From assembly GCF_963455295.1 (NCBI RefSeq), contig NZ_OY734020.1, positions 3,410,001 to 3,474,000 of the forward strand: a DNA stretch of 64,000 bases, in the 5' to 3' direction. The stretch comes from Candidatus Thiodiazotropha sp. CDECU1 (GTDB lineage Bacteria > Pseudomonadota > Gammaproteobacteria > Chromatiales > Chromatiaceae). A program made the position numbers and the translations under genes. Within the stretch, counting starts at the first letter, position 1, and the number at the start of each line of letters is the position of its first letter. The notes below the pieces were generated by a model. The model saw only the letters and a list, made by a program, of their open reading frames with translations. It ran no database searches and was not told the DNA's origin. Of the stretch, positions 5,395 to 60,079 are shown piece after piece.

Positions 5395-5560
5395 TTTGTT
5401 ACAGAATCCGCGTTGAGTGATGTTTTAGAGCAGCAGTACTAAAATTGGCATTGATCATATCAGAAGAATCATTCATTGGATTACTTAAATATTAATTTCT
5501 CATGCCGGTGTAATTTACATATTAGTAATTATTTTTAATTCTTATCATAATAGTTCTTAT

Positions 5561-7843: not shown

Positions 7844-7919
7844 TTGTATTTAGGATAGTGAGTTTCAATACAAACTATTCTAAATATTATGAGGAACAGC
7901 TCTTTTTATCTTACAGTCA

Positions 7920-9757: not shown

Positions 9758-9774
9758 ACATTATAATCAAGTCA

Positions 9775-10335
9775 TTATCTTGGTTGAGATAGTACTTTAC
9801 AGATATCTATTACACAATTTTCAATCTCAGCCACTACTTTATTTGTAAATATTTGCCCCTTATTATATGGATCCATTATTTCAACACTATTATTATTTGA
9901 AAAAGCACCGATCCATACTGTCTTTTTTCCACAGTCTCTATCCATTTTATTGAGTAAATCCCAATTATATCTATCCATTATTACAATTATATCTGCCCAT
10001 AATATATCTGATTTATTAATAAGTTTTGACCTGTGATTGGTTAAATCATGGCCAGATTGATTGAGGATCTTTAAATATCCAGGCTCGCATTCCCGATCAG
10101 TGTTGGTGTGAAATCCTGCTGATTTAATAAAATACTTACCTCCAGAACAATTTTTTTTCATTAAATATTCCGCTAGAGGGCTACGATAAATATTACCATA
10201 GCATAGTATAAGTATATTATTTCCTTGTCTGTTTTTGACTGCTTCTCGACTATTCTTCTTTGCACTAATTAATACAATAATATGCGACATTCTTCTATTT
10301 AATGAAGATATGACTCTTGCGATAAACCTAAACAT
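9775..10335 (-). CDS. Low-molecular-weight protein tyrosine phosphatase-like protein
   Basis: This 186-residue protein carries a 38-residue N-terminal extension with basic residues ahead of the phosphatase core. The P-loop C-x5-R-S is CYGNIYRS (Cys45, Arg51), and the general-acid loop is IMDPYNKG near residue 155. The family dephosphorylates tyrosine kinases or sugar transferases that control capsule and exopolysaccharide assembly (Wzb/EpsP type). No tyrosine kinase is in the window. It lies 19 bp downstream of the polysaccharide deacetylase. The Y-G-N loop differs from the usual L-G-N but keeps the catalytic residues. Confidence 0.83.
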   Translation of the reverse strand: MFRFIARVISSLNRRMSHIIVLISAKKNSREAVKNRQGNNILILCYGNIYRSPLAEYLMKKNCSGGKYFIKSAGFHTNTDRECEPGYLKILNQSGHDLTNHRSKLINKSDILWADIIVIMDRYNWDLLNKMDRDCGKKTVWIGAFSNNNSVEIMDPYNKGQIFTNKVVAEIENCVIDICKVLSQPR

Positions 10336-10354
10336 TTTCTAATTAGTCAATCAG

Positions 10355-11206: not shown

Positions 11207-11294
11207 CTGTCACCAACCATCCAAGTGCTTTGCATCATTTGCAAGAAATTAATGAGTGAATTAACACAAGAAAGTGTCATGCCAATTAGATTTG

Positions 11295-12509
11295 TTAGCC
11301 TGATTCATGTGACAGTATCTTATCATATAGTAATTGTGTCTTATCAACATTAACTTTTATATGAAAATTATCGACAAGCCTATCGTACCCCCCTTTTCCA
11401 AGACTATCCGCATATTGCTTATCTTTTATTAATTGTATGACGAGTTCAGCGAGATGATCATGATCGCCTGGAGTGAATGTCAGACCCGACTTTCCATTTT
11501 CAATAATTTCTGGTATTGCCCCATCATTCGCAGCAATCAACGGCTTTGACAGAGACATAGCCTCTATTAATACACGTCCAAAAGGCTCAGGATCAATCGA
11601 TGTATGAAGTACTATTTGTAGAATATTTAGATAATCAGGAACATTTTTTACATATCCTGTAAAAATAATATTTGATTCCAATCCCAGTTCCTTAATAAGT
11701 GAATGTAACTGATCTTCATAATAGCCATCTTCTTTAGCTGTATCACCTATCAGAAGACAAACAGTTTCGGGATAGATTTCAACAATTTTTCGCATAGCCC
11801 TGACAGCGACGATTTGCCCTTTCCACTCTCTTATATTCCCTATAATACCTATTAAATTTTTGACCTTATTTAAGCCCAACTTCTCTAGGATATCTTCATC
11901 GGATACCTTTGAAATGACCTCGTAAGGATCAATTCCATTATGTATCGTCACTATTTTGCTTTTTTGAATCCCGTTGCTAACTAATGTTTCAGTAACTGAA
12001 TTAGAAATACTGATAATTGCATTTAATTTGGTTGATAAATATTTCGGAATGCGCGGATAATAATTATTAATCCCACGCTCATGTGTAATGCAGGGTATAT
12101 TCGCCAAATATGCAGCGATGATCCAATTGTTATTTCTAAGAATTGAATTATTTAAATGAACCAGATCTATTTCATATTCATTTAATAATTTTTTTAGTTT
12201 AAAACTCGACACAACAAGAAAGCCAATTAAATTAATTATTTTTTGTATTACTCTAGCAATTGAGTTAAATAATTTTAAATAATCATTGTCTATGTGCAAC
12301 GCCTTCGGTTTAAACTGGAGTAGAATTAGCGTTTTTACTCCTGCTTTTTCGTATTCAGGTATCAGAGAATGGTGATTATGGAAAACAACAATGGGATTAT
12401 ATTTTGATTTATCCAGACCCTTCGTCAAAAATAATAAACTGTAAAATGATCCACCAACAGTACCATCAGTATTACCTTCGCAATACATGATATTTTTCTT
12501 CTTAGTCAT
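11295..12509 (-). CDS. GT4 family glycosyltransferase
   Basis: This 404-residue GT-B enzyme has an N-terminal domain with NTDGTVGGSFYSLLFL, a membrane-associating hydrophobic patch near residue 90, and the donor domain with GIIGNIREWKGQ. The E-x7-E motif PEPFGRVLIEAM is near residue 315. It probably adds one sugar to the lipid-linked repeat. It is the first gene of the minus-strand group deacetylase-phosphatase-hydrolases, with an 88-bp gap to the deacetylase, and faces a divergent 393-bp intergenic region. Confidence 0.88.
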   Translation of the reverse strand: MTKKKNIMYCEGNTDGTVGGSFYSLLFLTKGLDKSKYNPIVVFHNHHSLIPEYEKAGVKTLILLQFKPKALHIDNDYLKLFNSIARVIQKIINLIGFLVVSSFKLKKLLNEYEIDLVHLNNSILRNNNWIIAAYLANIPCITHERGINNYYPRIPKYLSTKLNAIISISNSVTETLVSNGIQKSKIVTIHNGIDPYEVISKVSDEDILEKLGLNKVKNLIGIIGNIREWKGQIVAVRAMRKIVEIYPETVCLLIGDTAKEDGYYEDQLHSLIKELGLESNIIFTGYVKNVPDYLNILQIVLHTSIDPEPFGRVLIEAMSLSKPLIAANDGAIPEIIENGKSGLTFTPGDHDHLAELVIQLIKDKQYADSLGKGGYDRLVDNFHIKVNVDKTQLLYDKILSHESG

Positions 12510-12902
12510 TTTTTACTTCACTTAGGCAATAAATAATAAATAGCAAGTAGATTACTCTAACATTTACCCAGGGCAGACCAAGCTCATGTCAAATGAAGTC
12601 TGGCCACAACCATTCCAATTTATTGGACCACACTCAGTATTTAGGTCAATGCCTAATAAGATAATCTGGTAAAATTTTGGCTAATTCCTGTGAATCTTGA
12701 GCTACTGTGCATTATATATATTAACATGTATTAATAATGGTGTTTTTACCGTTGACACAGCCATTCGTGCCCTTACTTTTTAAATGTTCTATTATATTCA
12801 CAGCTTGACTCAAGTTTCATATCAAGAACGCAAAACAACTTACACAACCGTATCAAAGATAGTATATTTAATTACAAAAAATACTCAACAAGGGGAGTAG
12901 AA
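12510..12902. other. Divergent intergenic region
   Basis: This 393-bp AT-rich gap between a GT4 gene (minus) and an asparagine-synthetase-like gene (plus) has no credible ORF. It holds TTGACA at 12752-12757 with the weak -10 candidate TACTTT 16 bases later, and a strong Shine-Dalgarno GGGGAG at 12892-12897 for the plus-strand gene. Promoter assignment is tentative. Confidence 0.35.
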
Positions 12903-14618
12903 GTGTTTTTAATATCCATCACCGGTTCAAAGACTCTCAACGAAAAAAGCATTCCGGAATTAAAGCATTACAGCTTTTCAATAAATGATAATCTGGATTG
13001 CCACATCTATTACTCAAAGAGAGATTATGAAATAGAAGAGAAAAATAACAAAGTAACCTTAATAAAATCTTCGATTTATTCTTGTGATATATTTGTATTC
13101 AACAAACAGGATCAGTCAGGCTATTCTATAAAGAATTTCATGCTCAGCTGCCCTGTTTATATATATGATAACTCAGACGCCCTTATAATATCTTCCAATA
13201 TAAGACTTTTTCATAAACTAAGTATCAAGACAGATATCAATACTAAGGTCTTACCGGAGTATTTTGTTTTCAGGTATGTTACTCCACCAAGTACCTTGTA
13301 CAAGAATATTTTGTCCCTGCCTTTGGATAGTCAATTTGTCTTTACAGTTGGTTCAACGAAAGTAGAAACAAAAAATCTAATCTGGACCCGCGCCTTTGAT
13401 AAAAAAGACGACTTATCATTCAATAGCGCTTCTGATTTACTTGTCGAAAATTTCACAAGCAATACTCAAGACTTATTACCTTTAAAGGATAATGTCTCCT
13501 GCCTATTGAGCGGTGGAATGGACTCATCTGTAATATTCAAATCTGCTAAAGACATATTAACTCTTAATAACTCACATTCAACTGGATATCCTTTCGAAAT
13601 CGAGGAGGAAAATGGTGAATTATTATATGCAACCACCGCCGCAGAGGCATTAGGATCCAAGCATGTCTACCACAAATTCACCAATACTCAATTCCTCAAT
13701 GGTTTAGTAGATTCAATCAGCCAGGCTGAGATGCCTGTAGTTCATCTGCAATCGATCTTGCTTTCATTACTATTCAAAAACTCCCTGAGTGAAAAAGATA
13801 AAATTATCCTTTGCGGGCAAGGCGCAGATGGTCTAGTTGGTTTAAATGTCATGTTTAATTACCAACATTATAAATATATGATCAAACCCTACCTCTCACC
13901 TCTTCTTTTAATCGCTTCCAAATTAATCTCTGAAAATTCCTTTACATTTGCCAGGTTTCACACATGGTCCAAACGCAAATGGAATTCTGATTACAGCAAT
14001 CTTAACCATGCCATCTGGATGCTTGGAATATTTGGTGATATGGACTGGGTTATGAATGAATTCAATGTCGATCAATCAGATATTTTTCAAAGCAGACTTA
14101 CAACCATTAATAATATAAAACCGAACTCTGTTCTTGATGCATTTTCAACCCTGGATTTTCTTTCAGATGTGGCTGTAACTCAAGATATCTGGTCACAAAT
14201 GGCTATTGATACAGGCCGCAACGTATATTACTCATTCAATCCAGAAAATATTATAAAAACAGCCAACAGTATAAGCTGGGAGGAGAAATTGACTGAGCCT
14301 AAAAGGCTTATGTTCCACCTTGGCTCCAAGCTAGGTGTCCCAGAATTTATACTCAATAGACCCAAGCTTGGCTTTGGTGTTAGATCATCTCTTTGGGCCA
14401 ATAAAGGGGGCCTTAGCGAGCCTCTGTTAAAACTCATTGAACCTGTTGTTGATATTGAACTGGTAAGAACTTTTCAGGGTTCAGACGAAAGACGAGCCAT
14501 GATCTATTGGAACTGGATTAATTATGGAATATGGAAACGTTTATTCATTCTGCAAGAAAGCCCGCAAGACTTAAAAGCTGAGTTAAACGAGGCCATTCAA
14601 CAACACCCGGGTCTATAA
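12903..14618 (+). CDS. Asparagine synthetase-like protein, glutaminase-dead
   Basis: This 571-residue protein contains the ATP-pyrophosphatase loop SGGMDSS (residues 203-209) and a later CGQGADGLVGL corresponding to the substrate loop of AsnB. The N-terminal glutaminase region is divergent: it begins MFLISITG rather than MCG, so the Cys nucleophile is absent and glutamine hydrolysis is not expected. Such proteins adenylate a carboxylate and add an amine from another donor. In polymer loci they could amidate uronic acids or join amino acids to sugars, which is inference. The start (TTG or GTG class; GTG at 12903) follows GGGGAG by 5 bases. Confidence 0.78.
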   Translation: MFLISITGSKTLNEKSIPELKHYSFSINDNLDCHIYYSKRDYEIEEKNNKVTLIKSSIYSCDIFVFNKQDQSGYSIKNFMLSCPVYIYDNSDALIISSNIRLFHKLSIKTDINTKVLPEYFVFRYVTPPSTLYKNILSLPLDSQFVFTVGSTKVETKNLIWTRAFDKKDDLSFNSASDLLVENFTSNTQDLLPLKDNVSCLLSGGMDSSVIFKSAKDILTLNNSHSTGYPFEIEEENGELLYATTAAEALGSKHVYHKFTNTQFLNGLVDSISQAEMPVVHLQSILLSLLFKNSLSEKDKIILCGQGADGLVGLNVMFNYQHYKYMIKPYLSPLLLIASKLISENSFTFARFHTWSKRKWNSDYSNLNHAIWMLGIFGDMDWVMNEFNVDQSDIFQSRLTTINNIKPNSVLDAFSTLDFLSDVAVTQDIWSQMAIDTGRNVYYSFNPENIIKTANSISWEEKLTEPKRLMFHLGSKLGVPEFILNRPKLGFGVRSSLWANKGGLSEPLLKLIEPVVDIELVRTFQGSDERRAMIYWNWINYGIWKRLFILQESPQDLKAELNEAIQQHPGL

Positions 14619-14650
14619 AAACTTCAACTGTCAGGGAAGTTAATAATAAA

Positions 14651-14684
14651 AAAAGCACTACCCGCTCTCGCGGGTAGTGCTTTT
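14651..14684. terminator. Bidirectional Rho-independent terminator
   Basis: A perfect 15-bp inverted repeat (arms 14651-14665 and 14670-14684) encloses the tetraloop TCTC. The stem is GC-rich at the tip (CTACCCGC) with A-runs on one side and T-runs on the other. It lies between the convergent asparagine-synthetase-like gene and the beta-helix gene and can end transcription from both. Confidence 0.92.
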
Positions 14685-14710
14685 ATCTACTCAATGAATA
14701 AGCTGTACGT

Positions 14711-16108
14711 TTAGTACAAAAATGGGGAACTCGGTGGCGAATTTGCTACCGTTGGCTGTGTATCCGGAGCCGCACCACTAGCGCCAATGACATCATTTGA
14801 GGAAACACGGGCACCTATATTTATCGATGCGTTAGTACCACTCGATAGTAAATTCAACATATCCACGCCCGCGTTTAAAGCTGGGGAGTTGGATGAGAGC
14901 GTTAAATTGTTTGCAGACACATCACTCAACTGTGGATTTGTGAATTGTGATCCAGTGACATCCTGATTGAAGCTGCTTTGCCAACCAGATGATGAATAGT
15001 TCTGATAGTAGACTCTCGCTTGAGAACCATTATTGTAATACATGTTATACCTGAAGGTAGTTCCAGGAATGTTTGAAATATCTTCAGCCTGAATAGCCCT
15101 AGTACCGCCAACTACCAGATTGTTTGCAATAACAATATCTCTATAACCACTGGTTCCAGGCATCAATGCAAATCCGCTGACACAGTTATAGATAGTGTTG
15201 TTCACAACATCTATGTTTGCCGGATTACTGGAATCATAGCCAACGAACTGATAACCGATAAAGCTGTCACGGATAATATTTTGGTAGGCAAGCACACCAG
15301 CACTTCCGACTGTACCAAAAGTGACGGCTGCTACGTCTATATCGTGGATGTAGTTGTTTCTGATTGTGAAAGGTCCGATATTGTGACCCTTGATAAAAAT
15401 GCCACCATTTGATTCAGAAATATCATTATACTCAAAAGTGATATTACTTGATGTGTAAGTCATAATCGCGCTGCCGTTAGTATTACCGTCAGCGTTTCTA
15501 TTCCCATAAATAGTGTTATTCCTTACTAATGAGTCTCGAGAGCTCTCAACCCTGATAGCATTATGATTGTCATGCCAACCGGCCGTGACACTTCGAATAG
15601 TGAAGTTTTGAATTGTTATGTTATCGGAAGTCCATATCACTACAGGTCCTGTATCTGGAGTTGTATTGATATTTCTCTCATCCAGAATAAAGCCATCCCA
15701 AACAATGTGACTATTATCATATGCACCGACAATCGGTTCACCGGCTGAACTGGTGGGAGAAGCCAGGATCACATTGCCTTCTGCGCGAAATGTAATTGGG
15801 CTACCCGCGGATCCTGAATTTACAGGATTATAGATGGGGATGTATCTACTACCGATACCTTGGTTGGTAGTGTATGTGCCAGCTCGTACTATAACGACAT
15901 CCGCTGCACGCGCCGCCTGTTGAGAGTTCGGACTGGTCCTTGATGTGCTCCCCCACACGGCACGGCCTAGACTCGCCCATGGTTGTGAGCTGCTGTTAGC
16001 GTCATAGGTGGTGGAATCACTACCTGTACTTGCATCTACGTAAAGGGTTTTAGCCTGTACCAGAGAAAACGCTAGCAATAATGTTGCAAATAATATTAAT
16101 TTCTTCAT
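14711..16108 (-). CDS. Secreted right-handed parallel beta-helix protein
   Basis: This 465-residue protein has a clear Sec signal peptide (MKKLILFATLLLAFSLVQA). It is followed by TLYVDASTGSDS, typical of DUF1565/pectate-lyase-like starts, then repeated Asn-rich coils such as RNNTIYGNRN, EYNDISESNGG and RNNYIHDID. This is the look of a PbH1-repeat beta-helix that binds, cuts or epimerises polysaccharide. The C-terminus ends NSPPSSPFLY with no PEP-CTERM or membrane tail. As a secreted protein inside an exopolysaccharide island it may be a polymer lyase or epimerase; the exact activity cannot be told. It is followed by the shared terminator. Confidence 0.82.
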   Translation of the reverse strand: MKKLILFATLLLAFSLVQAKTLYVDASTGSDSTTYDANSSSQPWASLGRAVWGSTSRTSPNSQQAARAADVVIVRAGTYTTNQGIGSRYIPIYNPVNSGSAGSPITFRAEGNVILASPTSSAGEPIVGAYDNSHIVWDGFILDERNINTTPDTGPVVIWTSDNITIQNFTIRSVTAGWHDNHNAIRVESSRDSLVRNNTIYGNRNADGNTNGSAIMTYTSSNITFEYNDISESNGGIFIKGHNIGPFTIRNNYIHDIDVAAVTFGTVGSAGVLAYQNIIRDSFIGYQFVGYDSSNPANIDVVNNTIYNCVSGFALMPGTSGYRDIVIANNLVVGGTRAIQAEDISNIPGTTFRYNMYYNNGSQARVYYQNYSSSGWQSSFNQDVTGSQFTNPQLSDVSANNLTLSSNSPALNAGVDMLNLLSSGTNASINIGARVSSNDVIGASGAAPDTQPTVANSPPSSPFLY

Positions 16109-17267
16109 GATGAACTCTCATAACTCGCTGAATTTACTATACTAATTAGAAATTTCCATATTGTTGTAAATTTCAGCATGGGTTTAGTTTCTATTCATAG
16201 CCATTATCGGCATGCAACACGATTTTCTTTGAGTGTTAGTTCGCAAATGTTGATGTAGCAGTTCACATATTTATATTTTACCGCTCTCATCCCAGATGTG
16301 GGAGGTATTTCAAGAGACCAATCACGATTGTGTGCTTAACATTTCTTGGACTTTTCGTGAATTTGCCTGCTCATTCAGAGTGTTACCTATGCATATCGCC
16401 GATTGTCACTCCCCTCTCTGTGCATGCATGGCATCTAAGACCCTATCTGCTGGCTGTGCCCGACCGATCATGAGACAACTATTAATCCAGAAAATTTTAC
16501 CTTCCACACCAATAGTACAGATACTCAGGTGACACAGTAAGAATATATGTGTGAAATTATAGTGAATTGTTGTGGATGAATTTAGATATAAAAAATGTGT
16601 GGATAATTCACAATCCCTGCTAATCGAAACAAATTCTCACATATCCATTAATTTTTTTAATTGGTACATATGTTATATTTATATCTTTTTTGAGTAAATG
16701 TCGATCACACTTGATTATACAGATCTTTACCGTTCCAGTTTTCTACCCTGTTGGACATTGTGGTTAATAACAACACTGTTTTCAGATGCGACCTACCGCC
16801 ATCCAGTTCTTTTAGTGAATCATATGCCATTCAAATGCAACAGTTACTCATAAGCAGTAACAGTCTACCATTGTATATTTATACGACAATTTTTTCGTTT
16901 TTAGACTTACTCCTTTCAATATTGGGCTCTTCATATGACTTTAATTTAATTCCTATGAGCAGAGGGTTTTAAAATTTAAACTCAGATAATGGCAGTTATA
17001 TTTATATCCGGATCAATCCTTAAATTTTTCAACTACATTGTTTATTGCTATAAAGCCATTTAGGGCCTGTTAACAGGCCCTAGTTGTAAGCATCGTAATG
17101 TTCCTAAAATGATTGTAGAATTGTTGGCTAACTTGTACACCCAAAGTACATTCCTGATTTGCTGTCGCTATTTAGAGTAACCCAGACGATTCACTTGACT
17201 GTGTGTAGTTTTTGATTTGAAACAATCGCTATAACTTCTTATTTTTCTGACCTAGATTTGAATAAAG
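16109..17267. other. Long AT-rich non-coding stretch
   Basis: This 1,159-bp gap between the beta-helix gene (minus) and the flippase (plus) contains only short open frames (78 and 73 codons at 16296 and 16751) with no recognisable protein features. It holds the start signals for both neighbours and a perfect 22-bp palindrome at 17061-17082 related to the MITE ends at 61 kb. It may be a decayed gene or insertion region. Confidence 0.5.
17061..17082. repeat. Palindrome matching the joined ends of the 61-kb MITE
   Basis: The core GGGCCTGTTAACAGGCCC is flanked by TA on both sides and is perfectly self-complementary over 22 bp. The left half equals the tip of the left terminal repeat of the MITE at 61160, and the right half equals its right tip. 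The two share TGTTAACA. It could be a deletion scar of a former element copy, or act as a weak terminator. Confidence 0.7.
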
Positions 17268-18809
17268 ATGTTGAATAAAAAGAAAATATTCAAGAACATA
17301 TTTTCCAACTGGATGAATTTTGCTGTTAATGTATTAATTTCTTTCTTTTTGGCGCCTTTCATAGTTCACAGTCTTGGTAATACTTACTATGGCATCTGGG
17401 TAATCCTGATGCAGTTTACCGGATATCTGTACCTTATGGATTTTGGTATACGTGAATCAATTATTAGATATGTTTCTAAACTTGAAGCCAAAGATGATAA
17501 TAGAGAATTAAATGAGATATTAAGTACCGGTATACTCTTATATGGCGGTATAGGCGTCCTAAGCTTATTTATAGCTATTCTTTTTTCCTTTATATTTCCC
17601 TATATATTTTCAAGTCCTGCTGGTGATCTTACAGATATTCGTATTGCCGTTGTATTAAGCGGTATAACTATAATGCAGTTCCTCATTTTTAATGTTTACA
17701 TGGGCATTCTAATGGGGTTACAGCGTTACGATGTTTACAACATTATAGGTATATTTGCCGCTTTCATAAGATTAGGACTTATTCTCTATTTCCTGGGTAA
17801 TGGATATGGACTAGTTGCCCTTGCTTCAATACAACTGATAATCAGTCTTGGTGTAAGTATATTTATTTATATTTTTGCGCACAGATTACTTAAAAAACAT
17901 AACGTACCTTTCAAGTATATACACAAGCCATTTAAAGAAAGATTCCCAATATTTAAGAAGCTTTACAATTACAGTGTCTTTGTTTTGATAAACAATCTAG
18001 GTGAGAAGGCAATTTTCAGTACCGACGCCTTAGTAATCGGTATCTTTTTATCAGCACCAGCTGTCACTTTCTACGCAATAGCTGGAAACCTGATAATTTA
18101 TCTTCGGAAGTTGATATTAATGAGCAACAGCGTCCTGAACCCTGTTGCCAGTGAACTCGAATCAAAGAACGACATGTCAGGTGTCGGTCAACTTGTTTTA
18201 AATGCAAGCAGGTTGACTATGCTGATCGCATTACCTGTGTGCATCGTCTACTTATCATTGGGTGAAGATTTTATTAGGGTATGGATGGGGCTTGAATACA
18301 CTGAGTCATCACCAATAGTACTCTATATCTTAGCTGTGAGTACGTTACTTGCTGTTCCGCATAATACTATCAACATTATTCTATATGGTATTAGCAAGCA
18401 CAAAACCGTTGCCTATCTAAGAGTACTTGAAGCAATATGTAATTTATTGTTGAGCATTATATTAGTCAACTATATTGGTATATTCGGGGTTGCACTAGGT
18501 ACGGCAATTCCACAGATTATATTCATGGTTATAACCCTTCCAATTTTAGTCAGAAAACACATCCAATTTGATGGTTACAGATACATTATCGACGTTTACA
18601 CCAAACCACTAATTGCAGGTCTGCCTTTTGCGCTGGCAGGTCTCTATATTACAAATTATCATGCAGCAGAATCATTATTTACTTTTTTCCTGCAATTGGC
18701 GGCGATTATGCCTGTGTACATTATTTCCATATTTATAATTTGTTTAAAGAAGGATGAAAAAGAACTGTTATGGTCCCTGCTCCAAAGATATGTACCATTA
18801 TTAAGGTAG
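17268..18809 (+). CDS. Polysaccharide flippase, Wzx/MATE-like
   Basis: This 513-residue protein has about fourteen predicted membrane spans and the opening FSNWMNFAVNVLISFFLAPFIVHSLGN-type region typical of the Polysacc_synt (MOP/Wzx) family (residues about 12-40). It also has DFGIRESIIRYVSK near residue 58. Wzx proteins flip undecaprenyl-linked repeat units across the inner membrane for Wzy polymerisation. It completes a Wzx/Wzy set with the polymerase-like gene at 1762. It is separated from other plus-strand genes by the long non-coding region and ends 65 bp before the convergent asparagine-synthetase-like gene. Confidence 0.88.
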   Translation: MLNKKKIFKNIFSNWMNFAVNVLISFFLAPFIVHSLGNTYYGIWVILMQFTGYLYLMDFGIRESIIRYVSKLEAKDDNRELNEILSTGILLYGGIGVLSLFIAILFSFIFPYIFSSPAGDLTDIRIAVVLSGITIMQFLIFNVYMGILMGLQRYDVYNIIGIFAAFIRLGLILYFLGNGYGLVALASIQLIISLGVSIFIYIFAHRLLKKHNVPFKYIHKPFKERFPIFKKLYNYSVFVLINNLGEKAIFSTDALVIGIFLSAPAVTFYAIAGNLIIYLRKLILMSNSVLNPVASELESKNDMSGVGQLVLNASRLTMLIALPVCIVYLSLGEDFIRVWMGLEYTESSPIVLYILAVSTLLAVPHNTINIILYGISKHKTVAYLRVLEAICNLLLSIILVNYIGIFGVALGTAIPQIIFMVITLPILVRKHIQFDGYRYIIDVYTKPLIAGLPFALAGLYITNYHAAESLFTFFLQLAAIMPVYIISIFIICLKKDEKELLWSLLQRYVPLLR

Positions 18810-18874
18810 TCAAATTGATAAGTTAGATTAAGCCAACCCGATAATATTATATCTATGCTTGAATATTACTAAGA

Positions 18875-20785
18875 TCAATATTCCAACTGGATTTTATCCT
18901 TTGATGCCAATACAAAAGCTAATAACATAAGCGCATAGAGCCTGTGCTGATTTGATGGATCATTTGGATTGTCACGATAATCCTTCAACAGTTTATCAAT
19001 TATCGATTTTGCATTGTTAGAGAATAGTTCCTCTTTATAATTAACCAAATAATCAATCCACTTATAACTAGAATCCTCTAGGATTCGATTGATATTAAAC
19101 ACAAATCCCATTTTCTTTTTATTCACAATCTCTTCAGGCAGATTAGCTTTGAGATAGGCTCGCAGTATTTGCTTGTTTACATTATTTTTAAGTTTTAGCT
19201 CTTCAGGCAAGTCATTTATATATTCAGCAAGCCTGTTGTCTGTAAAAGGAAATCTTATTCCCTTTCCCAGAGCATGAGCTAAATAATGCGCTTTCCTATA
19301 GGCGGTATGTGGTTCCCAGACACCGCAAATGACCTCTGTTTCCAACTCTATGCGAGTCATTGACTTTCGACGACCCATCACATTCCATAAATAGGTATGT
19401 TCAAAAGATACTTCCCTATCCAGGAGGTCCTCTAATTCCTTACTACTCCATCCCTGCCATGCAACGAACGCCTCTTCTATTGGCATATCCCAGTTTTTTG
19501 CTAGATTTCGCATATTTGAAGTCGTCAACTTCATTGCGCCTAGAACTGTACGCCATAGATACTTAGGTACGTGATCCTCTATATCTATACGCTTTTGATA
19601 TTTCCAAATACCGCGTGGAACGCTTGAAACACCAAAGTAATAATCATTTCCAGTCCCATCTAAAATCAAATTGCAGTCATCGGGTAATTTTGTCATGCCG
19701 AGAAAATATGGCAATGTAGCCGGATCACCAATAGGCTGATCAGACAGGGCCGTGAATTTGTAAAACCCCTCTTCAATCTCATCATCTGTTGGGTAATAAC
19801 TTATGTGCTGCAACCCTAATGCCTTGCACACTTTTCTCGCATCTTTTGTTTCATCACTCCGTTTTTCCGATTGTCCTATTGTTAATGCAACTACTCTATC
19901 CGGACAAATTTTACTTAGAGCGATAGCAAGAGCTGACGAGTCCTTTCCACCACTTAGTGTTAGCGCAATCCTACCCTGTTCAGGTAGACAGTCCGTGACT
20001 GCTTTGATTAAATGATTCTCAAAGTTTGGTAGCTGTTTTTCTATAGCTTCATTAATTCGATTATCGTCATTAAGTGAATTACCTATGACAAATCGATCTT
20101 TAGAGTATTTTTTCTGTTTAAATTGACTATCTATTTGCAGGATATGCCCTGGAAGTACTGCGGTGCAGTTCTTGTAGATTGTTAATGGTGCGGGCACATA
20201 TAGATAGTGACATAATTCAGCTATGGATTGACTGTCGGCATTTAGTGCAACAGAATTTCTTAATAAACGTAAGTCAGTGGCAAAATAAACACTCTCACCA
20301 TGCTTTATAACATTGAGTGTCTGAATACCTATCCTGTCTCTAATAAACGATATGGTCTTTGTTTTGCTGTCAAAAATAAAACCAGCCCATGCGCCATTGA
20401 TTGTTTGAAATTTTGAGACATCATTTTGCCTGTATATTTCCAATAACCGCAAACTGGACTTTATATGATCATGACTTTGTTCTTGTTCGAAGAGTGATCC
20501 ATGCAACACACCTTGAAGGCCATCCAAAACTGGAATTGTATACTCTTTAACATCAGAATCAGTTTTGCTTTCCTGTGTATTTTGATATGACAGTGCAGCA
20601 ACGTTCTCACCTAACCAGACTGTCTTCGATGTAGATTCGGATCTAGCAAATTGGCTATCAATTAAGTCCAGTTCTTTTTTGAGGTCATGAGACTGTCCAT
20701 CCAAACGCATAACGCCTGCAAAACCTACTATGACAGGAGGGATCTGCATGTTTTTAGATTTAATAAACGTATTATTATCAGTCAC
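18875..20785 (-). CDS. Asparagine synthetase-like amidotransferase lacking the glutaminase cysteine
   Basis: This 636-residue protein has a recognisable N-terminal Ntn domain (VGFAGVMRLDG, then RDRIGIQTLN near residue 150, as in AsnB). The residue that should be Cys after the initiator is buried in VIVGFAG and no Cys is present there. The synthetase domain carries SGGKDSS (278-284) and a DGTGNDYYFG substrate loop. The length matches the XrtA-associated amidotransferase family (TIGR03108-like), but loss of the nucleophile suggests ammonia or another amine as donor. The start is GTG with GAGGTG upstream. It is the second such gene in the island. Confidence 0.82.
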   Translation of the reverse strand: MTDNNTFIKSKNMQIPPVIVGFAGVMRLDGQSHDLKKELDLIDSQFARSESTSKTVWLGENVAALSYQNTQESKTDSDVKEYTIPVLDGLQGVLHGSLFEQEQSHDHIKSSLRLLEIYRQNDVSKFQTINGAWAGFIFDSKTKTISFIRDRIGIQTLNVIKHGESVYFATDLRLLRNSVALNADSQSIAELCHYLYVPAPLTIYKNCTAVLPGHILQIDSQFKQKKYSKDRFVIGNSLNDDNRINEAIEKQLPNFENHLIKAVTDCLPEQGRIALTLSGGKDSSALAIALSKICPDRVVALTIGQSEKRSDETKDARKVCKALGLQHISYYPTDDEIEEGFYKFTALSDQPIGDPATLPYFLGMTKLPDDCNLILDGTGNDYYFGVSSVPRGIWKYQKRIDIEDHVPKYLWRTVLGAMKLTTSNMRNLAKNWDMPIEEAFVAWQGWSSKELEDLLDREVSFEHTYLWNVMGRRKSMTRIELETEVICGVWEPHTAYRKAHYLAHALGKGIRFPFTDNRLAEYINDLPEELKLKNNVNKQILRAYLKANLPEEIVNKKKMGFVFNINRILEDSSYKWIDYLVNYKEELFSNNAKSIIDKLLKDYRDNPNDPSNQHRLYALMLLAFVLASKDKIQLEY

Positions 20786-52669: not shown

Positions 52670-52836
52670 GATCACAAGATTGTACACAAATTCATTAACC
52701 AACCTGAATATCATAGGCGTAGATATTCATATCAAATCATCCCGACATCATGCGGGCTTGAAGATTGCTTTCATAGCCAAAACATCTAACATGTAGTGTT
52801 ATGATCCATGAATAAAAAACCGATAGGATATTTCCC

Positions 52837-53265
52837 ATGAGCGACCCTCTGCTGCATAACCTTACACCACAACAGGCTTGGCAATTAATGCAGGACGATC
52901 CACGTACTGTGCTGGTCGATATCAGGTCCAGCATGGAATTTCTCTTTGTCGGCCATCCTAAGGGGGCTGTGCATGTACCTTGGATTGATGAACCGGATTG
53001 GACGGTTAATCCTCATTTTGTCACCGACATAAGAAAACTCCTTCTGGGCGGGAGTATCTGCACCATCGATGAAGGCTGTGCCCCCGTTGTCCTCATCTGC
53101 CGCAGTGGCAAACGATCCCTTGAAGCCGGCAAGGCACTCCTGGATGGTGGCTTTATTCGCGTGTTTCACATCGATGAGGGGTTTGAAGGTGATCTCGATG
53201 ACGACCATCACCGCAGCACTACGGGGGGTTGGCGTTACCATGGTCTACCTTGGGAACAGTGCTGA
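52837..53265 (+). CDS. Rhodanese-like sulfurtransferase
   Basis: This 142-residue single-domain rhodanese has the active-site loop CRSGKRS (Cys88), VLVDIRSSMEF near residue 26 and a family-typical GAVHVPW. It carries sulfane sulfur and could serve cytoplasmic sulfur relay in this sulfur oxidiser, but no partner is adjacent. It is divergent from the acyltransferase gene and convergent with yadH. Confidence 0.9.
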   Translation: MSDPLLHNLTPQQAWQLMQDDPRTVLVDIRSSMEFLFVGHPKGAVHVPWIDEPDWTVNPHFVTDIRKLLLGGSICTIDEGCAPVVLICRSGKRSLEAGKALLDGGFIRVFHIDEGFEGDLDDDHHRSTTGGWRYHGLPWEQC

Positions 53266-53295
53266 ACATTACACCCCACACCCTGTGTCTACCCA

Positions 53296-54072
53296 TCAGT
53301 CTTTAATGCCGACACCACGGGAGAGTAGTACCAGGCTGAATCCTGTCAACAAGACGATAAATCCCAGAATAATCATCAATGCCAGGGTCACATCGATATC
53401 GGAGACACCCAGGATGCCGAAACGGAACGTGTTGACCATGTAGAGCACCGGATTCGCCAGGGACAACTTTTGCCATATCTCCGGAAGCAGTTGTATGGAG
53501 TAAAACACCCCGCCAAGATAGGTCAGTGGCGTCAACACAAAGGTCGGCACTATGGATATATCATCGAAGCTTTTGGCATACACTGCATTGATGAAACCCG
53601 CCAAGGCAAACAGGATGGATGTAAGCACAAACACCAGCAAGGTCAAAGCATAACTGTTGATGCTGAGATCGGTGAAGAACAGGGAGATTATAGTGACCAA
53701 CACGCCGACCATGGTACCACGGGCGACACCACCGACCACATAGCCACTCAGTACCACCCAATGAGGGACAGGGGCAATCAGCAGCTCCTCGATATAGTGC
53801 TGCAATTTGGTGCCAAAAAAGGATGACACCACATTCGCATAGGAGTTCTGGATCACCGCCATCAGGATAAGACCCGGAACGATAAAATCGATATAGCGAT
53901 AGCCATCCATCTCACCGATTCGATCACCGATCAATTTGCCGAAGATGACAAAATAGAGGGTGGTGGTTATTGCCGGCGGCAGCAGTGTCTGCACCCAGAT
54001 GCGCATGAAGCGCAACACTTCCTTCGTAATGATGGTCTGAAATGCGATACGGTAGATCCGCCAGCTATTCAT
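53296..54072 (-). CDS. yadH: ABC-2 type transporter permease, YadH-like
   Basis: This 258-residue permease has about six spans and the ABC-2 signature region EELLIAPVPHWVVLSGYVVGG, and an N-terminus (KEVLRFMRIWVQTLLPP) closely like YadH of E. coli. It pairs with the ATPase encoded upstream, whose stop it overlaps by 8 bp. The exported substrate of YadGH is not known. Confidence 0.88.
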   Translation of the reverse strand: MNSWRIYRIAFQTIITKEVLRFMRIWVQTLLPPAITTTLYFVIFGKLIGDRIGEMDGYRYIDFIVPGLILMAVIQNSYANVVSSFFGTKLQHYIEELLIAPVPHWVVLSGYVVGGVARGTMVGVLVTIISLFFTDLSINSYALTLLVFVLTSILFALAGFINAVYAKSFDDISIVPTFVLTPLTYLGGVFYSIQLLPEIWQKLSLANPVLYMVNTFRFGILGVSDIDVTLALMIILGFIVLLTGFSLVLLSRGVGIKD

Positions 54073-55042
54073 CGTTTCCTACCCGCTGCTGCTTGGATCG
54101 GTCGACCAGGTCGACAAACATCTGTTCCAAACGATTTTGTTTGTTGCGCATGCTGACGACTTCGATTCCCTGTTGCGAGAGTTGCTGGAACAACTGATTC
54201 ATACTCTGGTCACGCACAACTTCCACTTCAATGATTTCACTATCGACCAATGTGGCACGATACTCCTGCAGATCGGGCAGCCTGCTGACCGGTGATGCCA
54301 GGTTGAGCAGGAATACCTCGGTATGCAGTTGACTCAGCAATCTCGACATACTGGTCTGTTCGACGATTCGCCCATGATCAATGATGGCAATATTGCGACA
54401 CAGGCTCTCCGCCTCTTCCAGATAGTGGGTGGTCAGAATAATGGTCGTCCCCTGTTGATTGATCTCGCGCATGAAACTCCACATCGAGCGACGAATTTCG
54501 ATATCGACACCAGCGGTCGGCTCATCAAGAATCAACAGTCTGGGCTGATGCACCAGGGCCCTGGCAATCATCAAGCGACGCTTCATCCCCCCTGAGAGCC
54601 ATCTAGCCTGGGTGTTGCGTTTTTCCCATAACCCCAATCTTTGCAAAGCCGCCTCGGCCCGTTGGAATGCCGGCTTTCGCGGGATCCCATAATAGCCTGC
54701 CTGATTGACCAGGATCTCCACCACCGGTTCCCACATGTTGAAATTGAACTCCTGGGGTACCAGGCCGAGCAGAGACTTCGCCTGATCCTTCTCAAGATCC
54801 AGATCATGGCCATAGATCACGACCTCACCAGCGCTCTTATTGATCAGCGAGGCAATGATGCTGATAGCGGTGGACTTGCCGGCACCATTCGGTCCCAAGA
54901 GGGCGAAAAAGTCCCCCTCTTCAACCTTGAGATCGATGCCTTTTAAGGCCTCAAAGCCGTTGCGGTAGGTCTTGTGGAGATTATTGATTACGAGGGCAGT
55001 CACATCAGAGGTTAGCCTAGGCGGTTCTGTACATCCATCCAT
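54065..55042 (-). CDS. yadG: ABC transporter ATP-binding protein, YadG-like
   Basis: This 325-residue ATPase has Walker A GPNGAGKST near residue 54, signature LSGGMKRR near residue 153 and Walker B LLILDEPTAGVD. It matches the YadG type that pairs with YadH. The frame's ATG at 55042 overlaps parA by 31 bp; a GTG at 55003 is an alternative start giving VTALVINNLHKTY. Overlap with parA and yadH indicates one operon with the CYTH-CHAD gene. Confidence 0.88.
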   Translation of the reverse strand: MDGCTEPPRLTSDVTALVINNLHKTYRNGFEALKGIDLKVEEGDFFALLGPNGAGKSTAISIIASLINKSAGEVVIYGHDLDLEKDQAKSLLGLVPQEFNFNMWEPVVEILVNQAGYYGIPRKPAFQRAEAALQRLGLWEKRNTQARWLSGGMKRRLMIARALVHQPRLLILDEPTAGVDIEIRRSMWSFMREINQQGTTIILTTHYLEEAESLCRNIAIIDHGRIVEQTSMSRLLSQLHTEVFLLNLASPVSRLPDLQEYRATLVDSEIIEVEVVRDQSMNQLFQQLSQQGIEVVSMRNKQNRLEQMFVDLVDRSKQQRVGNDE

Positions 55043-55755
55043 AGTGCCTGGTAGGCGCTGGCGGCAAAACAGTTGGGCGAAAACGCCTGCACCGGCATCC
55101 GATGGATTCCCATCTTCTCGACATCGCTGGCATAGGGGATCTGTGCCTGCAACAGTTCACCGTGAGCGTCCGGGAAATTCCTCATTATATCCAGATGCAT
55201 ACGCTTACGTCGATCCGCCATGGAAAAGAAAGGCATTAACTTCAATCCGGTGATGCGGTGGCCTTGCAGAAAATCGAGAAGCTGTTGGTAGGTGCGCAAC
55301 GAAAGTGTGGTGGGTATCAAGGGCAACAGCAGCCCCTCGGCGGCACGGAAGATATTCTCCGAAACCAGTGAAATACTCGGCGGGCAATCAAGGAACACAT
55401 AGTCATAGTTTTTTGAAAGGGGGCGCAACAGCTTCAGCAGCTGCTTGGTGGGTTTCTTCGCATCCTCCAGTCGCAGATCCATATTGCGATAGGAGAAGTC
55501 GGCAGGCAGCATATCGAGATTCTCAAAATCTGTCGCCTTGACCACATCGTCCAGGTCGAACTTACCCTTGATAAGCTTTTTACTGCCCTTTACCTTCGCT
55601 TGAATACGAAAATAGAAGGTCGCGGCTGCCTGGGGATCCAAGTCCCAAATCAGGGTGCGATAACCCTGTTTAGCAGCGAGATAGGAGAGATTGACTGCGG
55701 TCGCAGTCTTACCAACCCCGCCCTTGATATTGTAGACGCCGATGATATGCATCAT
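55012..55755 (-). CDS. Orphan ParA/MinD-family ATPase
   Basis: This 247-residue ATPase has the deviant Walker A KGGVGKT (residues 11-17), switch DLDPQAAAT and LDCPPSISLVSENIF. The signature lysine is kept, so it can form ATP sandwich dimers that bind DNA non-specifically in this family. No ParB, replication or chemotaxis gene is adjacent. It overlaps the CYTH-CHAD gene by 4 bp (ATGA), so they are made together. A role in positioning a cytoplasmic cargo such as polyphosphate is inference. Confidence 0.88.
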   Translation of the reverse strand: MMHIIGVYNIKGGVGKTATAVNLSYLAAKQGYRTLIWDLDPQAAATFYFRIQAKVKGSKKLIKGKFDLDDVVKATDFENLDMLPADFSYRNMDLRLEDAKKPTKQLLKLLRPLSKNYDYVFLDCPPSISLVSENIFRAAEGLLLPLIPTTLSLRTYQQLLDFLQGHRITGLKLMPFFSMADRRKRMHLDIMRNFPDAHGELLQAQIPYASDVEKMGIHRMPVQAFSPNCFAASAYQALWMDVQNRLG

Positions 55756-57296
55756 CTCACCCCAAACAGCTGATGAAAGGCGTTTTGTTTCGACTCGCTG
55801 CTGAAATCGGCAAACAGATCAACAAAGGCATCCCTGGCCTGCTGCTGTCTCTCCAAAAGCCTGCCAACGAGAATGCCCATGGCCATCAGTGCACTGGCTG
55901 GCGCCCCCTCTTGCATCATCTGTGCACCAAACTTCTCCAATGATTTTGCCTGTACTTCCAGGTCCTGGAACTCCCCAAGATTATCAAGGATCACCTTCAA
56001 TGACCTGATCAGCCCACGGATTGCCGGCTTGGGGTATAGGCTCTGAAAGAACTCCATTAAATAGCGTAGTTTTTTACAATCCTTGCGGAGTTCGTGCAGT
56101 TGCTCAGCGGGTGAATCATGGCCGATGCCGATACCATCCTTGAGTACCCTCTTGTGGAGTTTCCCGATGCGCTTATCGGCCAACTCTACTGTCGGACGCA
56201 TGGCGTTTGGAGCCTGCGAACTATCCACCCCTGAATCCTGCAACCAGCTACGCCAGGCCTTCAGGGACTTTCTGAAATGAGGTGAGTTGATTTTCTTCAC
56301 CAGCTCGGCTTGGGCCTGCTTGTGGTGTTGCTGCAGAAAGGTGTGAAAAGGATCGAGATCATCTTGAACCATCTTTGGCAGGGAGGCCTGATAATCGGGA
56401 TATTGCAACAGATAGACATCCAGATCCCTTGTCTCCCCGGTTATTTGTCCAATCCAGCCAAAAGCCTGCTTGAATGGCGCCAGCTGTTGCACATCGAACA
56501 CCCCTTTTATCTGGCTCATAGCCGAACGGGTACGCCGGGTGGCAACCCGCAAATCGTGGAGAAACTCGCTGTCCAGATTCGCCCTGGTGCCATCCACATT
56601 GGCTTCCAGGGTATCCAGCAGATTCAGCATGATCTGGCGGGCCGTTTCATGCGCAGGGGCATCCGGATCGAGCCTGAAATTGAGCTTGGAGCTGTAATCG
56701 CCCGGTTTGCGCTCCACACCCAGCAATGCGTCATGGTACAGACTCTGCTCCGACAGTCTGAGTTTGAGTGATGCGAACTGTTGTTTAAGCTTCAGGAAAT
56801 CACTCTCATAGCCCTTTAACGGCTGCAGCACAATCCGGCCATCCAGGTCACCCTTTAACCTGCCCTTGACCGCGCTGAATTGATTCTTCTGCAGGATGAC
56901 TCTGACAACCGTCTTCTCATCGGCATCGAGAATACGCAAGGTATGTCGCTGCTGATTGATATGCACCATGGGTAGCAAGACACGCATCTCCAACACCGGC
57001 ACCAGGCGCTCCCGGACCGGGCCAGCGGGGATATCCTGGCTGAACCCTGGGGCTGATTCGATGGCTTGGCAGTGAGATTTTTTTTTATCCACCCAACACA
57101 GTTTATTTTGCTCGCCCTGCTCGTAGCGCAACTCTCCCCCCGCCTGCCAGACGCGCCAGTCGAAACTGTCGTAATAGGTCTGCTTTACCTTAACCGGGGT
57201 ATCTTCCAACAATGGATAGGATTCAGAAAGTATTCGCTTGAATCCTTCGAAATCGAGCTCTTCAGGCAATAGATAGGTAAGTGGGTGTTGTGCCAT
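55752..57296 (-). CDS. CYTH-like and CHAD domain protein
   Basis: The 514-residue protein has a degenerate CYTH-like N-terminal domain (about 1-200) without the ExExK motif of active triphosphatases. A C-terminal CHAD domain (about 220-500) follows, with paired basic motifs EFLHDLRVATRRTRS and EQLHELRKDCKKLRYL. CHAD domains bind polyphosphate and localise to polyphosphate granules. Loss of ExExK suggests binding rather than hydrolysis. The ATG follows GAGG. It is the first gene of the operon with parA and yadGH. Confidence 0.88.
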   Translation of the reverse strand: MAQHPLTYLLPEELDFEGFKRILSESYPLLEDTPVKVKQTYYDSFDWRVWQAGGELRYEQGEQNKLCWVDKKKSHCQAIESAPGFSQDIPAGPVRERLVPVLEMRVLLPMVHINQQRHTLRILDADEKTVVRVILQKNQFSAVKGRLKGDLDGRIVLQPLKGYESDFLKLKQQFASLKLRLSEQSLYHDALLGVERKPGDYSSKLNFRLDPDAPAHETARQIMLNLLDTLEANVDGTRANLDSEFLHDLRVATRRTRSAMSQIKGVFDVQQLAPFKQAFGWIGQITGETRDLDVYLLQYPDYQASLPKMVQDDLDPFHTFLQQHHKQAQAELVKKINSPHFRKSLKAWRSWLQDSGVDSSQAPNAMRPTVELADKRIGKLHKRVLKDGIGIGHDSPAEQLHELRKDCKKLRYLMEFFQSLYPKPAIRGLIRSLKVILDNLGEFQDLEVQAKSLEKFGAQMMQEGAPASALMAMGILVGRLLERQQQARDAFVDLFADFSSESKQNAFHQLFGVR

Positions 57297-57418
57297 TGGG
57301 CAACCTCAAATTCAACTAGCCAAGAGATTAACTGACCCGGCTCGATGTGACAAATACCAGGATCAGAACCATTCCCTCCTTACCTCCTCTCTTCCGCTAT
57401 AATCAACCTCCTCATCTA

Positions 57419-60079
57419 CTAGTCATCACCAGCTTCAGCCAGGCATTTGCTGGCTATCTCATAGACATCCTTCGAGATATCGGCGTGAGACAGAACCCGT
57501 TCGAACTGGGCACGCATCAACCCCTGGCGCAATTCATCATAACGACGCCAGCGACTCATGATCCGGATCATCCTTGCCGCAATTTGCGGGTTCAACCGGT
57601 CAAGGGCTATGACCTGATCGGTGAGGAATGCGTATCCGGAGCCGTCAGGCATGTGAAAGGCATTGACGTTGATACTGCAGAAGACACCAATCAGACTGCG
57701 AACCTTGTTCGGATTACGCAGCGAGAAAGCCTTATGCTCCATCAATGCCTTGACCTGTTGCAGTGTCCCGGGCAGACGGGAACTCGCCTGTACTGCAAAC
57801 CACTTGTCCATTACCAGCGGTTCGTCAATCCACTGTTTCTCAAAGGCGGCGAGGGCCTGATCCCGCTCCGGACAATCGGTGTTGGACAGGCAACTGAGTG
57901 CCGCCATCACATCAGTCATATTGTTCGCTGTTTGAAACTGATTATAACAGAGCTTGTGGATCTCGGGATCATCCAAATGCATAAGATAATCCAACGCCAG
58001 GTTTCTCAACCTGCGCCTGGCAATGGATGTGGACTCAATATCGTAGGCATAACCAGCGCAATTTTGCTGGTAGACATCTATTAGATGATGGCGTAGTCGA
58101 CTGGCCAATGCATGCTTGAGCCACTCCCTGACATGATGGATCGCCTCCACGTCCACAACGTCCATCTGGTCACCCAAAGTGGACTCGCCGGGGAGCCGCA
58201 ATACTTCACTCAGCAGCGCCTTGTCGGCGGCACTGTTTTTCAGGGCGGTCTCAAAGGCCCCAGCCAGACCTGCGTCCAACGAGAGGTTTTTTCCAGCCCG
58301 ATAGTCAGCCACCAGTTTCAACAAGGTCCTCTGTGCCAGGGCCTGGGAAGCATCCCATCGATTGAAGTCATCCGTGTCCCTGGCCATCAGAAACATCAGC
58401 TCTTCGTCAGTCGCGGGATAGCGCAGCTTGACCGGTGCTGAGAATCCCCTCAGCAGCGAGGGTATCGGCTGCTCCTCGAAGCCGACAAAGGTGAATTGCT
58501 GATCCGCAGCAGACAGCTCCAGCACCCGCCGGGTAGCTTGTGGTTCCGCCTCACCCTGCAACTGCAACGGGAGCTCGTTTCCCTCCCGATCCAACAGGGC
58601 TATCGCAACGGGTATATGGAAGGGCCTTTTATCCTGTTGTCCCGGTGTATCCGGGCAGTGCTGACGAAAGCTGAGTCGATAGCTGCCCTGTTGGGCATTA
58701 TACTCAGCCTCCACCTCAACCACCGGTGTACCCGACTGGCTGTACCAGAGACGAAACTGGGTCAGATCCCGACCACTGGCATCCTCCATGCACCGAACAA
58801 AATCATCGGTGGTGACGGCCTCACCATCATGGCGGCGGAAGTAGAGATCCGTTGCCTTTCGATAGAGTTCAGGACCAAGAAGATTGGCCTGCATGCGCAC
58901 CACTTCAGCCCCCTTCTCATACACCGTCACGGTGTAGAAATTATTGATCTCTATATAGCTGTCCGGGCGCACAGGATGAGCCATCGGGCCTGCATCCTCG
59001 GCAAACTGATGGCTGCGCAGCAGACGCACGTCATCGATTCGCTTGACCCCACGGGATCCCATATCGGCGGAAAACTCCTGATCGCGAAAAACCGTCAGCC
59101 CCTCCTTCAGGCTAAGCTGAAACCAATCGCGACAGGTGATCCGATTCCCGGTCCAGTTATGGAAATACTCATGGGCAATCACCCCCTCGATACCCTGATA
59201 GTCGTTGTCGGTCGCGGTATCGGTGCGGGCCAGTACATACTTGGAGTTGAATATATTCAGGCCCTTGTTCTCCATTGCGCCCATGTTGAAATCATTCACC
59301 GCCACGATCATGTAGATATCCAGGTCATACTCGCGTCCGTAGCGCTCTTCATCCCAGGCCATGGCCTTTTTCAATGAGCTCATGGCATGATCGCATTTAT
59401 CGATGTTCTCCGGCTCCACGTAGATTCGCAGGTCGACCTCCCGGCCAGAGAGGGTGGTAAAACTATCCTGCTGAAAGCGCAAATTACCGGCGACCATGGC
59501 AAACAGATAGCAGGGCTTGGGAAAGGGATCTTTCCAGCACACCAGATGGCGACCACCCTCCAGCTCCCTCTCCTCGACACAATTTCCATTTGCCAGCATG
59601 ACAGGATTATCAGCCTTACTGGCGCTGATGGTGGTTGCAAAACGCGCCATCACATCCGGGCGATCGAGATAGTAGGTGATACGCCTGAAGCCCTCGGCCT
59701 CGCACTGGGTGCAATAGAGTCCCCCTGACCGATAGAGCCCTTCAAGGGCGGTATTTTTTTGCGGATAGATCACAACCTGTGTAGTCAGGACAAAACGATC
59801 CGGTACATTGGGGACGGTCAGAGTCCGCTCATCGACCTGGTAGGCCTCATCAGGGAGAGGCTGATCATCCAGCGCTACAGCCTGCAACTGCAACCCTTCA
59901 CCATCCAGCTTCAAGGCGGGATTCAACGTTCCACTGGCCGGGTTTTTCCGAATATGCAAACGGCTGGTGACCTGGGCTGACTCATCCAACAGGTCAATAA
60001 ACAGTTCTACATCATCAATCAGGTATTCAGGAGGACGATAATCCTTCAAATGGATGGTTTTTGCGTTTTTTGTTCGCAT
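57419..60079 (-). CDS. pepN: Aminopeptidase N
   Basis: This 886-residue M1 metalloaminopeptidase has the exopeptidase motif GAMENKGLNIF near residue 257, zinc ligands in VIAHEYFHNWTGNRI with Glu about 19 residues later (SLKEGLTVFRDQEF), and the DUF3458 C-terminal domains typical of E. coli PepN. It removes N-terminal residues from peptides in the cytoplasm. Length matches the family. The downstream 122 bp before the CYTH-CHAD gene has no clear terminator. Confidence 0.97.
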   Translation of the reverse strand: MRTKNAKTIHLKDYRPPEYLIDDVELFIDLLDESAQVTSRLHIRKNPASGTLNPALKLDGEGLQLQAVALDDQPLPDEAYQVDERTLTVPNVPDRFVLTTQVVIYPQKNTALEGLYRSGGLYCTQCEAEGFRRITYYLDRPDVMARFATTISASKADNPVMLANGNCVEERELEGGRHLVCWKDPFPKPCYLFAMVAGNLRFQQDSFTTLSGREVDLRIYVEPENIDKCDHAMSSLKKAMAWDEERYGREYDLDIYMIVAVNDFNMGAMENKGLNIFNSKYVLARTDTATDNDYQGIEGVIAHEYFHNWTGNRITCRDWFQLSLKEGLTVFRDQEFSADMGSRGVKRIDDVRLLRSHQFAEDAGPMAHPVRPDSYIEINNFYTVTVYEKGAEVVRMQANLLGPELYRKATDLYFRRHDGEAVTTDDFVRCMEDASGRDLTQFRLWYSQSGTPVVEVEAEYNAQQGSYRLSFRQHCPDTPGQQDKRPFHIPVAIALLDREGNELPLQLQGEAEPQATRRVLELSAADQQFTFVGFEEQPIPSLLRGFSAPVKLRYPATDEELMFLMARDTDDFNRWDASQALAQRTLLKLVADYRAGKNLSLDAGLAGAFETALKNSAADKALLSEVLRLPGESTLGDQMDVVDVEAIHHVREWLKHALASRLRHHLIDVYQQNCAGYAYDIESTSIARRRLRNLALDYLMHLDDPEIHKLCYNQFQTANNMTDVMAALSCLSNTDCPERDQALAAFEKQWIDEPLVMDKWFAVQASSRLPGTLQQVKALMEHKAFSLRNPNKVRSLIGVFCSINVNAFHMPDGSGYAFLTDQVIALDRLNPQIAARMIRIMSRWRRYDELRQGLMRAQFERVLSHADISKDVYEIASKCLAEAGDD

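Follow-up and report, generated by a model that had tools for sequence, protein, structure and literature searches.

A conserved CHAD–parA gene pair in Candidatus Thiodiazotropha, a candidate system for positioning polyphosphate granules

Described systems

Carboxysomes are positioned by the McdAB system, in which the gene of one soluble ATPase of the ParA/MinD family adjoins that of a cargo-binding protein, with no ParB in the operon. The cargo binder, McdB, is a small disordered protein. A similar arrangement is present in a 64-kb stretch of DNA from Candidatus Thiodiazotropha sp. CDECU1 (contig NZ_OY734020.1, positions 3,410,001 to 3,474,000; the whole stretch is termed the window here, and the host genome is a single contig of 4.46 Mb). 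On the minus strand, the gene of a protein with a CHAD domain directly precedes an orphan parA gene. This pair differs from McdAB in that the putative adaptor is a folded CHAD protein and the cargo would be polyphosphate (polyP). It differs from ParABS partition systems in that Pfam finds no ParB in the operon or in the flanking genes scanned.

Two described CHAD proteins are close to that of the window. The CHAD domain of Chlorobium tepidum (CtCHAD; structures 6qv7 and 6qva) is 34–35% identical and has polyP contacts in common with it. The structure is that of an isolated domain, and a ParA link is seen in likely relatives only. Escherichia coli YgiF (TTM-CHAD) likewise has an N-terminal tunnel-fold domain joined to a CHAD domain (Foldseek match to 5a60). 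YgiF is termed a polyphosphatase (PMC6537752; papers are cited by PMC number from passages of their text, unless the main text is named), whereas the CHAD family of the window is without the ExExK motif.

With respect to polyP granules, AlgP of Pseudomonas aeruginosa is a factor for even granule spacing (PMC9239181), but it is a histone-like DNA-binding protein and not an ATPase of the ParA kind. In the passages of a 2025 review, AlgP is the sole polyP placement factor named, and the energy need is called unknown (PMC13052382). The main text of a survey of ParA proteins in Halothiobacillus does not contain the word 'polyphosphate' (PMC10241942). Positioning of polyP granules by a ParA was proposed nowhere in the titles, abstract starts and passages of the open-licence PMC matches listed.

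A cluster of ppk, parA and CHAD genes in Acidithiobacillus was printed in 2019 (PMC6416229) and 2024 (PMC10892726). It represents the same kind of pair, with ppk1 nearby (the kind and not the ParA family is compared), and pepN is also close (PMC10892726). The cluster has been interpreted in terms of cAMP signalling or copper resistance, and the passages of the two papers propose no granule role for ParA. The CHAD protein was proposed to be a class IV adenylate cyclase or a polyphosphatase regulated by polyP (PMC6416229). The sequence-only reading had called the window locus a plausible, undescribed module. As far as these passages show, the synteny was already in print for Acidithiobacillus, and what is new is the reading of it as a system for granule positioning.

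The gene pair and its conservation

The CHAD protein gene (positions 55752..57296, minus strand, 514 amino acids) overlaps the parA gene (55012..55755, minus strand, 247 amino acids) by 4 bp, at the sequence ATGA (55752..55755). The overlap looks real because CHAD stop codons of relatives have a spacing that fits an overlap of 1–4 bp: in 53 of 68 relatives, the first K codon of the KGGVGK motif comes 24 or 27 nt after the stop (the 68 are those of the 76 linked CHADs with sufficient length for this count). No ParA–CHAD gene fusion was noticed in open reading frame tables, in which no systematic search was made. A promoter and terminator scan of positions 52700–57600 gave match numbers at chance level.

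Two further genes, of YadG and YadH type, follow parA. The four minus-strand genes and their product types, all proposed in the sequence-only reading, are borne out by the open reading frames and by Pfam and NCBIfam labels (PF05235 CHAD, ParA-type AAA_31, ABC_tran, and ABC2_membrane with the PRK15066 permease). The proposed absence of ParB also holds: no ParB family of Pfam is matched by any of the four operon proteins or in the scanned flanking genes.

Among relatives, the best 80 of 139 ParA loci from a contig scan were analysed, a set that leans to close kin. A same-strand CHAD gene is directly upstream of parA in 76 of the 80 (a locus at a contig edge, L040, is counted as linked here and as edge in the survey tally, which gives 75/80). 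The four exceptions consist of one locus at a contig edge (L043) and three without CHAD (L057, L058 and L070). In L057 and L058 a Methylococcaceae-type parA is followed by an open reading frame of 834 amino acids that by eye resembles glycogen phosphorylase. The coupling is far beyond chance, and the real unit is the two-gene CHAD–parA pair.

The same pattern is found in the family to which the window belongs (Chromatiales, Sedimenticolaceae), sampled with 57 genomes. ParA is present in 26 of these and CHAD in 44, and all 26 ParA genomes have CHAD. A same-strand CHAD gene accompanies 30 of the 31 ParA places, 29 within 300 bp and one, a partial ParA match, at 1.8 kb; the remaining place is G002:C82. 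CHAD and ParA distances are correlated (r=0.82 over 62 loci, without species control; 126 CHAD rows were thinned to 92).

A second phylum sample comprised 296 genomes around the genome of locus L079. Both genes are found in 62 genomes, ParA only in 6, a long CHAD only in 2 and neither in 226, so that a long CHAD occurs in 64 and ParA in 68; the genomes look like close kin, and the counts are not independent. ParA comes next at 57 of 66 CHAD places, and 57 of 69 ParA places have CHAD directly upstream. Of the 66 places, 25 were first read as DNA, with ParA next in 22, as were 8 of the 9 ParA-less ones (all but that in G705); the rest were assessed by coordinates. In locus L237, a CHAD gene cut by the contig end stands beside ParA, although its genome (G655) is tallied as ParA only. 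Most of these genomes are probably green sulfur bacteria, since 23 of 25 CHADs are 44–56% identical to the C. tepidum domain.

The CHAD protein

The CHAD domain (residues 222–453, positions 55938..56633) matches PF05235 with 197 bits against a cut-off of 25.6, and PF05235 is matched by all 48 rows of an alignment of the window protein with those of 47 hand-picked loci from the 80. An AlphaFold2 model of the protein has a pLDDT of 93.8, and Foldseek returned 6qv7 and 6qva for the CHAD domain. Eight residues of CtCHAD that contact polyP at the core and front, and that had been mutated (PMC6537752), are all identical in the window protein: H253, R256, R260, R296, R418, Y419, R438 and K441 correspond to H247, R250, R254, R290, R411, Y412, R431 and K434. 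On the back face two of four residues are kept (K386 and K389), K390 is replaced by R, and R385 by G. With these contacts kept, the window protein should bind polyP.

The N-terminal domain, approximately residues 1–200 (positions 56697..57296), displays a degenerate CYTH/triphosphate-tunnel fold. Foldseek gave a probability of 1.00 to 5a60 (ygiF), 3bhd (THTPA) and 3sy3, with target-normalised TM-scores of 0.34–0.64. The Pfam CYTH family is matched by none of the 48 alignment members at E up to 0.1. The motif ExExK is the catalytic signature of CYTH/TTM enzymes. It is absent from the window protein; when the first 90 residues of relatives were inspected, it occurred in 1 of 87 linked proteins and in 0 of 25 from the second phylum sample. 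The domain keeps D43, D46, R105 and K128. Judged from the model, the likeness of the N-terminal domain to CYTH is one of fold only, and the domain is probably a dead enzyme retained as a binding domain. Thus, of the earlier label 'CYTH-CHAD', the CHAD part stands and the CYTH part applies at the level of fold likeness.

The N-terminal domain also appears to accompany linkage. Judged from the length of the frame, 30 of 30 linked CHADs in the family sample carry it, compared with 8 of 13 unlinked CHADs of the same subfamily (p=0.0013, kinship uncorrected; the subfamily limit of >200 bits was chosen after the scores were seen). With a profile of the domain, 4 of 91 linked CHADs score below 20 bits. 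A conserved C-terminal F..LF tail was considered as a ParA-docking peptide and was rejected, as it is also found in CHADs of ParA-less genomes (L169, L171 and L176 among them).

Elsewhere in the host genome there is one further CHAD match, and the genome gives one match to PPK1 and four to PPK2. The second CHAD is short (L002, G000:C1:3367166-3367861, within an open reading frame of 308 amino acids) and groups with unlinked short CHADs and not with ParA-linked ones.

The ParA protein

The orphan ParA matches AAA_31 of Pfam with 128 bits. Its deviant Walker A motif, KGGVGKT (residues 11–17, positions 55705..55725), and the A′ and B residues are invariant (K11–T17, D38, D40 and D123) in 52 of 52 rows of an alignment of the window with 51 hand-picked loci from the 80. 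The best profile matches are 8ray, 6iub and 1wcv. In fold comparison Soj/ParA entries are best, McdA is lower, and BcsQ is also listed. The bacterial MinD model gives 41.7 bits, far under its cut-off of 212.9. ParA is therefore probably soluble rather than a membrane MinD, to judge from the nearest folds, 8ray and Soj, and the sub-threshold MinD score. Residue R183 is at least 90% conserved and aligns with the arginine of the DxR motif in 8ray and 1wcv, but with no arginine in 6iub; it may have a role in nonspecific DNA binding. The protein is 99% identical to the copy in a metagenome-assembled genome (MAG) of the Ctena orbiculata symbiont and 93% identical to that of Candidatus Thiodiazotropha endolucinida, which places the host among Thiodiazotropha-like symbionts of lucinids.

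Polyphosphate kinase genes

Where the second phylum sample has CHAD without ParA, ppk1 often takes its place. Of nine such CHAD places eight were fetched, and six of these (L229–L231 and L233–L235) are directly before ppk1, the exceptions being L232 and L242. Among the 80 relatives' loci, L067 and L073 have ppk1 directly upstream of CHAD–parA, and L086 and L090 have it at a distance of up to ∼2.6 kb. This exchange of parA for ppk1, the four loci with ppk1 as a neighbour and the Acidithiobacillus cluster together tie CHAD–parA to polyP. All 26 ParA genomes in the family sample have PPK2, which might supply the polyP there.

What the pair may do

The pair is real, conserved and coherent, and positioning of granules is the best, but unproven, reading of its gene context and sequences. 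As a conserved two-gene module, it may serve to position or partition polyP granules, with the CHAD protein as adaptor; we give this roughly even odds (about 0.5). A nucleoid-type soluble ParA would act on the granules through the CHAD protein, which would coat the granule. The degenerate CYTH-like domain, or another face of the CHAD protein, may dock nucleoid-bound ParA-ATP dimers and trigger hydrolysis, and the resulting ParA gradient would space the granules or share them out. A wider proposal is more tentative. It envisages a dedicated ParA-driven polyP partition system, common to sulfur-oxidising gammaproteobacteria and probably green sulfur bacteria. The place of ParB or McdB would be taken by a new class of adaptor, a folded CHAD protein whose CYTH-like domain is dead.

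Several findings weigh against granule positioning. A basic, disordered N-terminus is a hallmark of ParA partners (PMC10241942). The first 20 residues of 87 linked CHAD proteins have a mean net charge of −1.2 (with mechanical starts), and the model of the window protein is ordered there, with pLDDT 82 and 91 in the first two ten-residue blocks. A basic N-terminal activating peptide is absent, and was rejected as a candidate. In the family sample, a CHAD of the same subfamily is found in 12 of 57 genomes without a ParA of the window type. PPK1 is rarer with ParA (10 of 26 ParA genomes versus 25 of 31 others, p=0.002), and the 16 ParA genomes that are without it include the single-contig G036. 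Only 4 of the 80 relatives' loci have ppk1 near the pair. Pho boxes at up to three mismatches number 5 in the window versus 6.6 expected, with none near the operon.

Linkage is also low in a survey of 398 Pseudomonadota genomes, of which 68, from 38 of 213 genera, have the ParA family (E up to 1e-50). Of its 69 loci, 7 are CHAD-linked and 62 are not beside CHAD. Thus CHAD and parA, for which rare adjacency in other genomes had been named in the sequence-only reading as a refutation of the module, are as a rule adjacent in the clade and in the second phylum sample, but adjoin only exceptionally, in 7/69 loci, in the wider Pseudomonadota. At E up to 1e-5, CHAD is matched in 49 of the 68 ParA genomes and missing from the other 19; of the 330 genomes without the ParA, 80 have such a match, relatedness uncorrected. 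Eight long-CHAD matches are strong (E<1e-80). The seven that extend into the N-terminal domain are the seven that adjoin ParA, and the eighth (G268) is confined to the CHAD part and is unlinked. Taken together, ParA without CHAD, CHAD without ParA, fewer PPK1 genes and the lack of a basic N-terminus weaken a simple McdAB-like picture.

One alternative is that the ATP switch of ParA regulates the CHAD protein or polyP metabolism, or that ParA tethers polyP to the nucleoid without moving granules. The gene context cited for granule positioning serves this explanation equally well, and regulating proteins of ParA fold exist, with BcsQ itself in the fold list. Motifs and closest folds alike point to positioners of the Soj/ParA chromosome type, though these features are compatible with regulation too, and we consider the explanation unlikely.

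It is quite unlikely, in turn, that ParA serves an old function unrelated to polyP and that the link with CHAD reflects shared expression only. The numerous survey loci away from CHAD and the ParA genomes with no CHAD match favour this, as does the frequent presence beside unlinked ParA of a gene from either of two clusters, RnfH (18 members) and PALP (14 members; each name rests on one member, in L144). Yet adjacency recurs in two phylum samples, and the overlap-compatible spacing is kept in most relatives. In addition, linked rows are found in three parts of a ParA tree (157 rows thinned to 114, plus three outgroup rows): one group with an SH-aLRT of 90 has 58 linked, 2 unlinked and 1 edge row, and two further linked pairs are elsewhere. 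The tree requires five changes of linkage label, either gains or losses, and three are forced by strong branches. Low linkage in the survey and the tree thus indicate that the ParA family is not always tied to CHAD.

It is very improbable that the CHAD protein works as a polyP-regulated enzyme, either a class IV adenylate cyclase or a polyphosphatase, and that ParA is a mere neighbour: the N-terminal domain has the CYTH/triphosphate-tunnel fold, and active-site residues are reported conserved in Acidithiobacillus (PMC6416229), but ExExK and Pfam CYTH matches are virtually missing from the family of the window.

Neighbouring genes

The yadG-like ABC ATPase gene (54065..55003, minus strand) and the yadH-like ABC permease gene (53296..54072, minus strand) are non-core neighbours. 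The yadH-like protein matches the PRK15066 permease model (NF011648) with 405 bits against a cut-off of 225. As mechanical open reading frames the four genes overlap by 4, 31 and 8 bp, as the sequence-only reading had stated, with yadG extending to 55042. The 31-bp parA–yadG overlap is probably a start-codon artefact, because relatives begin YadG at (V/L)(S/T/N)AL, past the parA stop; the window equivalent is a likely GTG start at 55003, 8 nt beyond that stop. Among 14 yadG loci, an upstream start as in the window is seen only in the near-copy L011. The mechanical start in L016 is inside parA at another place, and the remaining 12 start after the parA stop.

The sequence-only reading had also included the ABC exporter in the module. 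A four-gene module that couples granule positioning to a YadGH exporter finds some support in the common strand, the close spacing and the 8-bp yadG–yadH overlap, but is scarcely credible. A yadH gene is found within 2.5 kb after parA in 15 of the 66 loci with room, at variable spacing from parA to yadGH, and no yadGH match follows parA in the Thiodiazotropha loci L019, L020 and L025, although there is room for one. All 15 positive loci come from records of lucinid or siboglinid symbionts or from one Chromatiales MAG. Given this count of 15/66, the exporter was rejected as core of the module, and YadGH is a separate, lineage-specific neighbour of CHAD–parA.

Far from the operon, window positions 1–20000 have a GC content of 0.33–0.38, compared with 0.50–0.55 after 24 kb. 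Among the 10 of 18 long open reading frames scanned there are glycosyltransferases, an EpsH exosortase (6314–7843), two asparagine synthases, a polysaccharide flippase and a DUF3473 deacetylase. Perhaps this region is an acquired, exosortase-type polysaccharide cluster.

Significance

For the placement and inheritance of polyP granules, an open question, the CHAD–parA pair would provide candidates for both motor and adaptor, along with organisms in which to study them. If granule positioning by the pair is true, a storage polymer would join the cargos of ParA.

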